From: Pseudomonadota bacterium
GTDB taxonomy: Bacteria; Pseudomonadota; Gammaproteobacteria; Steroidobacterales; Steroidobacteraceae
Direction of reading: 5' to 3'
NCBI GenBank assembly: GCA_025351005.1
Contig: JANXWS010000003.1
Coordinates: 1-64,000, forward strand
Length of the DNA: 64,000 nt
The position numbers were made by a program, and so were the translations under genes. How positions within the stretch are numbered: position 1 is the stretch's first letter; each line of letters opens with the position of its first letter. A model generated the notes under the pieces. The model worked only from the letters and a program-made list of their open reading frames with translations. It did no database searches and was not told the DNA's origin. Below, piece after piece: positions 266 through 6,441 of this stretch.

Positions 266-292
266 TCACTCCCACTCAATCGTCTCCGGCAC
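266..292. repeat. guaA 3'-end direct repeat, copy 1 (putative attachment site)
   Basis: The plus strand reads TCACTCCCACTCAATCGTC then TCCGGCAC. On the minus strand this encodes VPETIEWE-stop, the conserved C-terminus of GMP synthase, but no guaA precedes it. It matches the true guaA end at 6415-6441 over the first 19 bases and again at CCGG, with one coding change (PATIEWE in the real gene, PETIEWE here). Duplicated gene 3' ends of this kind are what site-specific integration of a genomic island leaves behind, and guaA is a known island target. Confidence 0.75.
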
Positions 293-405
293 GTATAAGC
301 ACCTGAAAACATGAGTCTTACTGTCAAGGTACGCCAAACTTACCGTCAAATCTACCGCCAAAACTTTCCGCTTGAGCGCGATAGATATCGATAGATGCCG
401 AAGGA
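293..405. repeat. Conserved element-end block, copy 1, with iterated TTACCGTCAA-like motifs
   Basis: TTACTGTCAA (318-327), TTACCGTCAA (340-349) and CTACCGCCAA (352-361) are directly repeated. They are followed by CTTGAGCGCGATAGAT at 371 and a second GATAGATGCCGAA. The block at 3702-3812 carries the same landmarks at identical distances from its att repeat: 74 bases to TTACCGTCA and 105 bases to CTTGAGCGCG. Iterated short direct repeats beside a core site resemble arm-type binding sites of tyrosine integrases; that role is inferred. Confidence 0.55.
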
Positions 406-470
406 CACAAGCGATTCGCGCCCGCCCGCAGTCCCTGTTGACCGCAGGCTCGCCACCTCTCTGCGAATCC

Positions 471-1706
471 CTAAAGAACCGCCCACCAGGGTGCAGCCAG
501 AACGTCCGGTGCCAGCCATTCAATCGCATTACCGGTGTGCAGAAGCAGTCCAGCGCGCGCCTTCTTGCCGTACTCCGCGCGGAATGTGCGCAAGTGCGCG
601 GCATCGGAAAGCCTGGGACGCGCAGTGGACTTCACCTCGATAGGCAGCAGCTTGCCACCGGCCTCGATCACGAAATCCACTTCCTCGCCGATGGACGTGC
701 GCCAATAGCTCAACTCCGCGCGTTCAATGCGCGCATCGCGCCACGCCAGCAGATCGTGTAGCACGATATTCTCCAAGTGCGCTCCGGTCGGATCCTCAGC
801 TTCAGCCAGATGCATCGCAATGCCCGTATCGCCCCAATAGACTTTCGGCGCCTTGATAAGGCGCTTGGTTCGATTTACCGCATAGGCAGGTAAGCGCACG
901 AGAAGATAAGAGGTTTCCAGGAGATTGAGCCAGCGGTGCACGGTAGGCTGCGGTAGCGCTACGTCGCGGCCGAGTTCGGTCTGGTTGACGAGCTGGCCCA
1001 TTCGAAGACACGCGGCCCGCATAAGCCGTCGGAAATCCGGCAATCCACTTATGGACGCCAGGTCCTGCAGATCGCGTTCGAGGTAGGTACGAATATAGCC
1101 GTCGTACCAGATTCGTCGTTCCGAAGCCGAAGTGAGCTCCAGCGCCGGCGTTGGAAAGCCTCCGCGGCGAGCGAGCATGCGCCAATCCTCGGCTGTCCCG
1201 TCCTCGTCACCCAATAGATCGCGCCATCCAGCATCGGGCGTGGCGAACAACTCGTCCCATCGGCCACTCTGTCCGAGGCCGCGCTGCTCCCGGCGCGTCA
1301 TTGGCCAAAGAGTGAGATAGCTGGCACGGCCGGCCAATGATTCGGAGACTTGCCGCATCAGCAGGAGATTGGCGGAGCCAGTGAGTAGAAATCGCCCAGG
1401 CGTTCTGTCCCGATCAATGGCGCGCTTCACGGCGCGCAGCAACTGCGGCTCGCGCTGCACCTCGTCAAGCGTCACAGGGCCTGGGCCGCCTACAAGCACT
1501 TCCGGGTCGCGCCGGGCAGCATCGAGCACATCGAAATCATCGAGCGTCGCGTAACGCCGCTCTCCAGGAATGAGGTGTTCGACCAGAGTGGTTTTTCCAG
1601 TCTGCCGCGCGCCCGTGACGACGACCGCCGGCATAACCCGAATTCGCTCGGAAAGGGCAGCTCCGACTAGCCTGGGGAGGGCCTTCATGCAATGGATGAT
1701 AATCAT
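471..1706 (-). CDS. AAA ATPase with DUF4143 (ATP-binding/nuclease-fold) domain
   Basis: This 411-residue protein has an N-terminal AAA_14-type P-loop domain: Walker A GARQTGKTT at residues 32-40 and Walker B-like PVTLDEVQ near 78-84. A DUF4143 C-terminal half follows. Its end carries a PD-(D/E)XK-like signature, with EEVDFVIE near 341-348 and PIEVKS at 355-360, a fold seen in nucleases and nucleic-acid-binding proteins. Family members are frequent on genomic islands and their function is largely unknown. ATG at 1706 is used here; a second in-frame ATG at 1688 (MKALPRL) is equally plausible. No partner gene lies beside it. It sits in island segment A and is probably horizontally acquired. Confidence 0.85.
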   Translation of the reverse strand: MIIIHCMKALPRLVGAALSERIRVMPAVVVTGARQTGKTTLVEHLIPGERRYATLDDFDVLDAARRDPEVLVGGPGPVTLDEVQREPQLLRAVKRAIDRDRTPGRFLLTGSANLLLMRQVSESLAGRASYLTLWPMTRREQRGLGQSGRWDELFATPDAGWRDLLGDEDGTAEDWRMLARRGGFPTPALELTSASERRIWYDGYIRTYLERDLQDLASISGLPDFRRLMRAACLRMGQLVNQTELGRDVALPQPTVHRWLNLLETSYLLVRLPAYAVNRTKRLIKAPKVYWGDTGIAMHLAEAEDPTGAHLENIVLHDLLAWRDARIERAELSYWRTSIGEEVDFVIEAGGKLLPIEVKSTARPRLSDAAHLRTFRAEYGKKARAGLLLHTGNAIEWLAPDVLAAPWWAVL

Positions 1707-1957
1707 TCATCATGTGACTAGTCAAGTAACAATGACAAGGACTCAAATCTGTCCACTCTTGCGGGTCGGGAAACCCTCACTCATCAGCATTGATTTGGCC
1801 AACGTCGACCAATGGGCGTCATCGACCCTGCACCGACCAAGCCGACGGGCCGCATTCGGAAGGACCGGCGGTACCGCTCTGCCAGAGTCGCCCGGCAGAC
1901 GCGCTTTCGGGAGCCGCACAGGCGTGTCGGCGACAATGCTGAGAGTGTGCCTTAGCT

Positions 1958-4624: not shown

Positions 4625-4804
4625 GCTTGCCGGCTAAAATCCATGACACGACTACTCGGGACACGATCCTGGAGAAATTCGATTTCTTCCACTCCGCCAC
4701 CTCACACGCAGTTCTCACGAGCGGCCGTAGCGCGCATCAATCGAGCCCTCGGGAAGAGCTGAAGGGCGTCGCAGTAGCTGACCGTCGGCCGCAAATGGTC
4801 AAGC

Positions 4805-6052
4805 TCAATGAGCTGAATGCAGTGTGGTATTGAAAAGGTATTGGCTGTCGAAGTCGGTCTTGTCGCCGGCTCTCTTGTTCGTGACCGGCTGCAGCCGTGC
4901 AGTAAGCGGCTTGTGCCACTTCCAAGCTAGCGACGCCACGTCGCTGAAGATCTTTGCCAGACGTTCTTCGCTGACGTCGCCGGGAAGGGGTACGGTATCG
5001 AGCCCCGTCCCGCATACCGACGAATATGCAAGCAGCGAGTCGATCTCGTAGGTGTTCTCCGCCCAGCGCTGAGCGAGACGCTTGTCTTCCATCACGGGCA
5101 GCATCAAGCCTGAATATCCCACCTGCTTCACCTTTACCGCCTTGACGGCCGTGGTAATGGCAAGTGCTGCCGTCATCGTGCCGTTCGAGCCGAACGTGGA
5201 GCCCGTATATTGTTCGATAGCGTCCCCAATCGACGCATCCCCTAACGGCGCCGGCGTAGGATCCACGCCGACAAATTCCCATCCGCTGGATGCGGCCAAT
5301 GCATTGCCAACTTCCTCGCCAACCCGCGCGTGGATCGTCAACTGCCGTGTGAGCTCGGACACGGACGCATCGAAGTCCCCACGCGTGGACCCGAACACCT
5401 GCTGCACTACGCTGGCGCCTTCGAATCCCAGTGAGAACTTCTTGCCGGCTCCTGTGTGATACGCCCCCGGATAGAACGGTCCGAGCGGCTTGAGCATTGC
5501 GGTCGCCGCAAACAGAAACGTCCCTTGGCTATGTACACTGTGGTCTGCGACGTAGCGCACGAGCTTTGCTGACTCGCGAATCGTCTTCCAATGGATGCCT
5601 TCGTCATCCGCGATGATTGCACTTGCGTTGAGGTGCGGCAAAGTTGAGAGTACCTGCGCCAGCAGGCGCATCGCCGCGGGATCATCGTTGTCGTGGAGCA
5701 TTGCCGGACCGACGTTCGGCATGAAACCGTCCTTCTGCGACAGATCGTCGAGCGCGCGGAGGAAAGAAATGGCTTCCGTATCGGAGAGACCCTTTACGAG
5801 CTCCGCGAACGGCTGCGTCACGATTCGAACGGTTTGTGTCTCGTAGCCGCGTCGTGCGAATTCGGCCTTAGCGGCGTTCAGCACGCGCATCGCGTCGTCA
5901 ATCTGCGCCTCGTACTTCGATCGATCGAGGCGCAAAAAGGCTGTGATGGTGCGGACCTTCGGGTTGATTGTGTCCGAAGCGGCGTGCGCTGCACACATAC
6001 CTGCAACAGAGGCGAATGCGCAGATTGAGATAGTGGCGATCAGGCGTTTCAT
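4805..6052 (-). CDS. Exported DUF711/UPF0210 family protein
   Basis: This 415-residue protein starts with a Sec-type signal (MKRLIATISICAFASVAGMC, then AHAA|SD). The mature part matches the DUF711/UPF0210 family along its length: an IRTIT-like start (VRTITAFLRL), FYPGAYHTGAGKKFSLGFEG, the VGVDPTPAPLGDASIGDAIE block, the GTMTAALAITTAVK helix, GYSGLMLPVMED and VCGTGLDTVPLPGDVSEE. Known members are cytoplasmic with no established reaction, so an exported version on an island is unusual. It points away from higBA and is separated from it by 180 bases. No function is proposed. Confidence 0.75.
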   Translation of the reverse strand: MKRLIATISICAFASVAGMCAAHAASDTINPKVRTITAFLRLDRSKYEAQIDDAMRVLNAAKAEFARRGYETQTVRIVTQPFAELVKGLSDTEAISFLRALDDLSQKDGFMPNVGPAMLHDNDDPAAMRLLAQVLSTLPHLNASAIIADDEGIHWKTIRESAKLVRYVADHSVHSQGTFLFAATAMLKPLGPFYPGAYHTGAGKKFSLGFEGASVVQQVFGSTRGDFDASVSELTRQLTIHARVGEEVGNALAASSGWEFVGVDPTPAPLGDASIGDAIEQYTGSTFGSNGTMTAALAITTAVKAVKVKQVGYSGLMLPVMEDKRLAQRWAENTYEIDSLLAYSSVCGTGLDTVPLPGDVSEERLAKIFSDVASLAWKWHKPLTARLQPVTNKRAGDKTDFDSQYLFNTTLHSAH

Positions 6053-6414
6053 TTGCAGTTGCTTCTCAACGTTGCTGCCAGTGGGAGAGCTTACTGGCGC
6101 GCTCGGGTCGGCCTAAATGCCTGCCGCCCCCCCCTGTCCTTGGCCGAACGGATCAGTAGCCGCATTGAGTCTACCGTAGCTCGTGAATGGCGGCTCAGTG
6201 GCAGTAAGTGCGCGGCGACAGCCGGCCGGTGCTGGCCGACAGCGGCGGTAACCCCTCTCCACTGCCAGCCGTTTGTCCCTATCGGCGGTCGGCTCAAAAT
6301 ACGCACCGGCGACTAAGGGCGGTTGGAGTGCGAATTGGGTTTTTGCCAGATTCGCCCTGGTTTACGGGGTTCCGTATTGAGCGCGAACCGTGGCAAACTC
6401 TGTAGGCAGTCCCC
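6053..6414. other. Gene-free 362 bases between DUF711 gene and guaA end
   Basis: Only short chance frames occur. ACCGTGGCAAA with its TGGCAAA core at 6391-6397 starts 24 bases before the guaA-end repeat, matching 242-248 before copy 1. The rest may be the remains of a lost recombinase or simply leader DNA; no protein similarity is recognised. Confidence 0.5.
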
Positions 6415-6441
6415 TCACTCCCACTCAATCGTCGCCGGTGG
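6415..6441. repeat. Native guaA 3' end, the presumed attB/att core
   Basis: TCACTCCCACTCAATCGTC then GCCGGTGG is the true 3' end of guaA, encoding [12 protein letters not shown]. It is the resident counterpart of the direct repeats at 266 and 3675. Confidence 0.75.

Follow-up and report, generated by a model that had tools for sequence, protein, structure and literature searches.

How did two blocks of accessory genes come to lie in tandem behind guaA in an uncultured member of the Steroidobacteraceae, and are they fixed remnants or could they still be movable? The locus stands at the beginning of the window, i.e., the whole stretch of 64,000 nucleotides which was analysed; it was taken from contig C11 (JANXWS010000003.1, assembly GCA_025351005.1) from its first base, and window base 1 is thus the start of the contig. 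The blocks look like borrowed, movable gene cassettes, since parts of them recur in related species, in two of which blocks of this type have swapped places. The locus would very probably be an accretion array, of the type of cis-mobilizable elements (CIMEs), made up of two integrase-less cassettes and served in trans by a guaA integrase similar to that of the island GIsul2.

An earlier note on this DNA had pointed out that the 27-base end of guaA recurs at 266–292 (core A) and 3675–3701 (core B), and a search with a core pattern (up to 3 mismatches) bore this out: matches were obtained at 267–289, 3676–3698 and 6416–6438, the last within guaA itself (core C), and at no other place in the window. 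None of 100 shuffled sequences gave a match, and no fourth core copy was found in the organism's own assembly (2.71 Mb, 90 contigs). The two outer copies encode PETIEWE-stop and the resident guaA PATIEWE-stop, as had been stated; they are also closer to each other than to the native end, differing, by direct reading, in 1 of 27 bases from each other and in 4 and 5 of 27, respectively, from the guaA copy. The earlier note missed that the likeness between A and B outruns the core, with 106 of 142 positions identical (75%) in an ungapped comparison. In both, the core is followed by an arm of about 115 bp of the integrase-arm type, with direct repeats of two types, TTACCGTCA..CTACCGCCA and GCGATAGA..GCGATAGATGCC; to the right of core C there is ordinary guaA and no arm. 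The elements of the locus are as follows.

261 to 405, forward strand: attachment (att) unit A, core 266–292 and right arm with the repeats TTACCGTCA/CTACCGCCA and GCGATAGAT/CGATAGATGCC
3671 to 3815, forward strand: att unit B, core 3675–3701 and right arm
6415 to 6441, forward strand: core C, the native guaA 3' end, right arm absent
6328 to 6414, forward strand: left end of cassette 2, "class I" (TTTTTGCCAG..CCGTGGCAAACTCTGTAGGCAG), which recurs beside cores in other genomes
6415 to 8022, reverse strand: guaA, an intact open reading frame (ORF) with the attachment site within its 3' end
266 to 3674, no strand: cassette 1 (3.4 kb), unit A with DUF4143 ATPase and amidase
3675 to 6414, no strand: cassette 2 (2.7 kb), unit B with HigBA and DUF711
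1 to 265, no strand: end of another segment on the left, clipped by the contig start; 2–133 resembles DNA elsewhere

The left ends of cassettes fall into several classes and were seen at the left flanks of cores in many loci. Core C and, less clearly, core A have a left-end class with CCGTGGCAAA. Elements with an integrase possess GATAGA-type arms. Among the loci examined no integrase matching the TTTTTGCCAG/CCGTGGCAAA left-end class was seen. Positions 2–133 are similar to G299:C66 (93%) and to DNA downstream of guaA in G161 (80%). From these resemblances the array may go on leftward of window base 1, as the earlier note had suspected, and there are probably cassettes in the array beyond the two seen.

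Is the unit peculiar to this genome, and is it tied to guaA? Of 396 genomes sampled across the order, 13, among them the own genome, had the arm motif, and all 13 belong to one family. At 10 of its 19 places the strict core pattern stood exactly 109 bases ahead; some of the remaining places had an altered or truncated core. A unit profile, built from 26 copies, matched, among the matches listed, 60 of 217 family genomes, 43 of 114 high-quality genomes and 15 of 25 genera, with at most 14 matches in one genome (G379). Records named in a search with the unit pattern were mostly metagenome-assembled genomes labelled Gammaproteobacteria or proteobacteria (12 of 15). The unit was also noticed on small contigs binned as Eremiobacteraeota, Bryobacterales and Acidobacteriia (L037, L041, L043), which could be due to transfer or misbinning. 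Searches of plasmids gave no match with the unit, those of phages one match (25% covered, E 0.5), which was taken as chance, and viral_contigs did not contain the exact unit pattern.

For the arrangement of the units, 52 contigs including the window were studied, a part of those with unit matches. They carried 93 full units (at least one on 51 contigs, at least two on 29), and on none of the 52 was the orientation mixed. Where a full unit and guaA occur on one contig (22 contigs), the core side always points toward the guaA 3' end; 17 of these had guaA in the fetched stretch, two showed it on extension (G193:C30, G209:C117) and three were added by a guaA search (G347:C80, G414:C30, G239:C210). 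Of the 32 contigs which were then without guaA, 26 end less than 5 kb away on the guaA side; the other six comprise the three resolved by the guaA search, two short contigs of G379 (5.2 and 5.7 kb) and G297:C10. In G091 and G285 there is a unit-like arm no more than about 75 bp past guaA, and the contig ends soon beyond. Neighbouring full units are spaced 465 bp to 18.9 kb apart (median 2.2 kb, 42 gaps), less than 5.2 kb in 34 of the 42 gaps. Two guaA-like genes, 79% and 65% identical to that of the window, occur in one further genome (G130:C14 and G130:C42).

It could be argued that the repeats belong to a dispersed family unrelated to guaA, or that they are due to chance. The earlier note had named such a family as grounds for giving up its interpretation, and half of this was found: the unit is indeed dispersed, with up to 14 matches per genome among the matches listed, and it occurs away from guaA in G379 and G297:C10. 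It is not unrelated to guaA, since the single orientation on 22 of 22 contigs ties it to that gene; orientation and adjacency already oppose such a family, and by chance zero matches would be expected. This explanation thus has hardly any probability. An empty guaA site in a relative, the proof of insertion which the earlier note had proposed, was obtained in part: the guaA end of the congener G190 has neither unit nor arm, but its flank could not be traced further, a search for the G190 flanking gene in the window's genome having found nothing.

Are the cassettes shared between species? Window positions 3675–4668 (unit and HigBA) correspond to G379:C43 with 88.4% identity and 3675–4649 to G097:C84 with 87.6%, both matches starting exactly at the core; 258–1727 (unit and DUF4143) corresponds to G126:C51 with 85.2%, and between the window and G126 the identity of the guaA region is 75.4%, lower than that of this shared piece. 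The species G285 and G097, of different genera, have one cassette in common from unit to unit (85.7% over 1784 bp). In the congeners G142 and G155, two pieces, X (734 bp) and Y (2101 bp), are 98.2% and 96.2% identical, respectively, and guaA 78.1%. The order is X, Y, guaA in G142, and Y, X, followed by about 14.6 kb to guaA, in G155. Direct reading of the joint in G155 showed the end of Y as far as TCCCACTCA and X thereafter, which places the switch within the core. An AbiE hit had been assigned to the swapped cassette of G142; this was rejected, as its two genes are without a PADLOC hit.

Segments could perhaps also be moved by homologous (RecA) recombination between the 145-bp repeats, or by uptake of array fragments, and an integrase would then be unnecessary. 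The repeats are long enough for pairing and the shared pieces terminate at units; however, the switch between G142 and G155 falls within the 9 bases TCCCACTCA, beyond which the arms differ, and units A and B of the window are only 75% alike. We consider this explanation improbable.

Which enzyme could recognize the units? A candidate is P0001 (from G277), a P4-type integrase of 419 amino acids with Phage_integrase and Arm-DNA-bind_3 domains, which is encoded directly after guaA. A family search with P0001 yielded nine sequences at least 55% identical (itself counted), plus a fragment of 112 residues in G297; eight of the nine are located directly behind guaA. Between guaA and the integrase, a unit-like arm was detected with E < 1e-7 in seven of these eight and weakly (E 0.1) in the eighth, L165. 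One of the two arm repeats was counted 34 times in the eight gaps, versus a mean of 0.11 (maximum 2) after base shuffling, and the other 23 times in the same gaps, versus 1.15 (maximum 5). The arms of the units match the arm repeats ahead of the guaA integrases of the family, the comparison having been made with these and not with GIsul2. The closest plasmid relatives of P0001 are 65–66% identical. One record, NZ_CP155767.1 (L266), a Sphingomonas plasmid of 4 kb, is made up of guaA, alpA and, between the two, an integrase with 65% identity to P0001.

Within the arrays, integrases are scarce. A P4 integrase model (31 sequences) found them on the 52 contigs only in G209:C117 and G297:C10, plus six arm-domain fragments or fusions. 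A first hidden Markov model (16 proteins, mostly XerC/D-like) found nothing in the arrays but missed the P4-type integrase of G209:C117; no search was aimed at serine recombinases. In G209 the integrase is preceded not by guaA but by a stray fragment resembling its tail (L134:13150–13300).

In the proposed mechanism, each cassette would carry, on the side distal to guaA, a 145-bp attachment half consisting of core and arm-type integrase sites, and would extend as far as the next core. A tyrosine integrase of the P4 type, specific for guaA and encoded on other elements of the family, would recombine the cores; cassettes could thus be inserted, excised and reordered, while guaA would retain its coding end and the adjoining core. 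The direct basis for this is the sequence, the orientation, the matching arm repeats, the position of the integrase, the sharing of cassettes and one swap of order. From the matched sites, the position and the exchange we infer that the integrase acts in trans on the cassettes; the cassettes would presumably pass through circles, and the copies in the window may still be active. The suggestion of the earlier note that successive att-flanked elements without an integrase accreted at guaA is supported by the one-way orientation throughout the family, by the matching arm repeats at the guaA-adjacent integrase, and by cassette exchange which switches at the core.

Several observations weigh against this reading. 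In G379, the genome with 14 matches, the units are on contigs other than that of guaA; the guaA contig is 145.7 kb long, and its 18.3 kb following guaA contain no full unit, the matches there being partial and weak (E 0.003 and 0.011). Either the units of G379 would not be at guaA, or the bin, which is 5% contaminated, may be mixed. The notion that all arrays are located at guaA was given up because of G379. For the stretch behind its guaA (L280, G379:C110:1–19900), an array elsewhere, an array farther out, or a mixed bin come into consideration. G297:C10 contains units, and no guaA was found on 81 kb of the contig on the guaA side. Partial or weak units are common, and at one site in G379:C43 a left end is joined to an arm with the core missing. 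The pieces shared with the window stop inside present cassettes (at 1727 and 4668), and matches ending there mean that cassettes were also assembled from smaller pieces. In the own assembly, with a completeness of 86%, no relative of P0001 reached E ≤ 1e-30; the assembly has four Phage_integrase hits, and two of them, situated on other contigs, had scores like those of the XerC/D-type model. No integrase element was recovered with its two ends on a single contig, and P0001 is likened to the GIsul2 integrase by layout and plasmid relatives, not by direct identity.

Some of these points would fit pure decay, i.e., islands with integrases were integrated serially, lost their integrases by deletion and are now a fixed relic: no matching integrase in the own assembly, partial or weak units in many arrays, and the coreless junction in G379:C43. 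Decay would not account for pieces common to species at 85–98%, above guaA where measured, with one pair swapped in order, nor for the cassette which the two genera of G285 and G097 share from unit to unit. Decay as the whole explanation is rather unlikely, and an array served in trans is preferred.

What do the cassettes carry? The genes of the window segments are these.

471 to 1706, reverse strand: AAA_14/DUF4143 ATPase by Pfam; PADLOC candidate defence PDC-S01 (2.3e-115)
1958 to 3478, reverse strand: amidase by Pfam
3909 to 4241, forward strand: HigB-type toxin by Pfam; PADLOC PD-Lambda-2_A
4238 to 4624, forward strand: HigA-type antitoxin by PADLOC PD-Lambda-2_B only, no Pfam hit
4805 to 6052, reverse strand: DUF711 protein by Pfam

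The accessory genes listed by the earlier note (AAA/DUF4143, amidase, HigBA, DUF711) were confirmed by Pfam, HigA by PADLOC only. By PADLOC, 471–1706 (PDC-S01) and 3909–4624 (PD-Lambda-2 A/B) would be candidate phage defence. The lower content of guanine plus cytosine noted before for this DNA also holds: in windows of 500 bases it is 0.49–0.63 in 1–6500 versus 0.66–0.76 in 6501–14000. Likewise, the segments had been said to lack an integrase, and Pfam on eight window ORFs together with the ORF list revealed neither integrase nor transfer genes in 1–6414. For the family, 43 cassettes from 36 of the 52 contigs, with the window excluded, were evaluated; crude calling gave 115 ORFs, of which 52 were on the same strand as the unit and 63 on the opposite one. 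The scan covered 112 of the 115, three fusion ORFs being omitted. Among the top 25 of 80 Pfam families, Fic was found five times, and DUF4143, aldo-keto reductase, MFS, LysR, lipocalin, PIN and others twice each; among the top 25 of 75 PADLOC models were SoFic (n = 5), PDC-S01 (n = 3), AbiEi (n = 1) and AbiEii (n = 1). The cargo is a mixed load and no pure defence island.

Could another enzyme drive the arrays? An ORF of about 360 amino acids, in which an IS6-type DDE transposase is fused to Arm-DNA-bind_3, is present on five unit-bearing contigs (G305, G329, G118, G281 and G173), all of which except that of G305 have guaA. In the fusion P0002, the IS6 domain scored 212 bits with NF033587 (cut-off 125) and was also assigned to PF13610. 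Further copies of the gene lie immediately after tRNA-Ser (G293, G406) or tRNA-Lys (G299), and one is near a contig end (G358); broken or partial versions exist in G427 (beside tRNA-Ser), G334, G368 and G091.

L125:62–1183, L147:386–1432, L149:7679–8776, L119:12828–13907 and L132:6883–7956: fusion loci on unit-bearing contigs
L224 and L225: fusions after tRNA-Ser(GCT)
L228: fusion at the same place, broken
L226: fusion after tRNA-Lys

Nine fused frames are open; that of G329 has a stop near the start, that of G173 is without the usual N-terminus, and in G281 N replaces the first D of the presumed DDE triad. Six of the nine look whole. By pattern, a left insertion sequence (IS) repeat stands 57–62 bp upstream of six fusions (thirteen loci examined); ahead of the G281 fusion there is an altered left repeat (GGGTTTTGGTGCA), the pattern-matched one there being that of an adjacent IS6 copy without the fusion. 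In each of the nine the reading frame runs on through the right repeat, giving MHQNS or a variant of it in seven and, by a different frame, NAPEL in G293 and G406. The fusion gene is therefore not flanked by terminal inverted repeats, the left one being upstream and the right one within the reading frame, and nothing convincing for a right IS end was found downstream. Ratios of nonsynonymous to synonymous substitutions (36 pairs, some with saturated synonymous values omitted) were 0.04–0.25 for the transposase, 0.07–0.54 for the arm domain and 0.33–1.08 for the linker; by these values both domains are under purifying selection. In a tree the nine arm domains form one clade (support 0.86), with those at guaA as a nested clade (0.85), near integrases of tRNA-Met and tRNA-Ser (grouping 0.74) and away from the guaA integrases; a derivation from the latter was rejected by the tree. 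The simplest reading would be one fusion that spread, but since the right repeat is read in two different frames, separate fusions are also conceivable.

As a driver of the arrays this fusion is highly improbable. It occupies the place of the integrase, after core and half-arm, in G329, G118 and G281, and both domains are maintained by selection; however, it is on 5 of 52 contigs only, had no match in the own genome at E ≤ 1e-20, and has one IS end within its reading frame, and the core duplications would suit tyrosine recombination better than the target duplications of IS6 elements. Among the 5000 best plasmid records none covers 80% of the fusion, no relative was confirmed in viral_contigs, and none reached E 1e-92 in 369 genomes of the class, which included only two of the family besides the window's and no positive control. 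Part of a review of IS6 (PMC7986276) mentions only N-terminal extensions, and no such fusion was met in the literature by titles or abstract openings. It is conceivable, if doubtful, that an IS6-type transposase captured, in one event or a few, the arm-binding domain of a tRNA-targeting integrase and works at attachment sites of guaA, tRNA-Ser and tRNA-Lys, either by steering the DDE reaction or by blocking or regulating integrases. If true, such a chimera would be a new way of aiming a transposase at recombination sites, and together with the guaA arrays would amount to an integron-like gene exchange from parts which no known integron uses.

In this family the end of a protein gene acts as the docking place of cassette arrays which are present family-wide and in many copies, in most cases with no integrase close by; their pieces (genes of toxin-antitoxin systems, candidate defence and metabolism) are common to several species and reordered. 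How integrase-less elements persist and move could thus be tested directly with one integrase and one 145-bp site.

How does this compare with known systems? Integron arrays are similar in their single orientation, their small mobile genes and a site-specific recombination site. In contrast, the window segments contain no IntI or other integrase, the att site is of the arm type, the cargo lies on both strands (52 versus 63), and an attC-like single-strand fold of the unit was not found (four folds, z –0.68 to 0.81). The tandem islands at ssrA of Dehalococcoides are likewise bounded by repeats of one gene end, and 15 of 31 are without an integration module, according to the part of that report used here (PMC3146451); they differ in the target and in a recombinase which is there likened to the Ccr recombinases of SCCmec. 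CIMEs, as defined in the relevant portion of PMC5704250, share with the window the flanking att sites, the lack of a recombinase and the tandem position at one gene end; here, the units are close together, the 145-bp unit is strict, and single cassettes occur in different species. No integrase element which could mobilize the segments was seen beside them, the contig beginning at window base 1. GIsul2 has the same target, the guaA 3' end, and, in the sections consulted of PMC9376610, the core GAGTGGGA, which by direct reading is within all three cores of the window. In recA- E. coli, its integrase is described there as excising and integrating both the island and the integrase-less CR2-sul2 unit, which it moves from one att site of the guaA type to another; an integrase directly behind guaA and three att sites with an integrase-less unit are common to GIsul2 and this family. 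GIsul2 encodes its own integrase, whereas the window segments are without one and relatives carry one behind guaA. Unlike GIsul2, the arrays consist of several units with unrelated cargo, mostly have no integrase on the contig, and belong to an uncultured family. The element is of a known kind; its copy number, the small cassettes and their sharing across species set it apart as a variant not described before.

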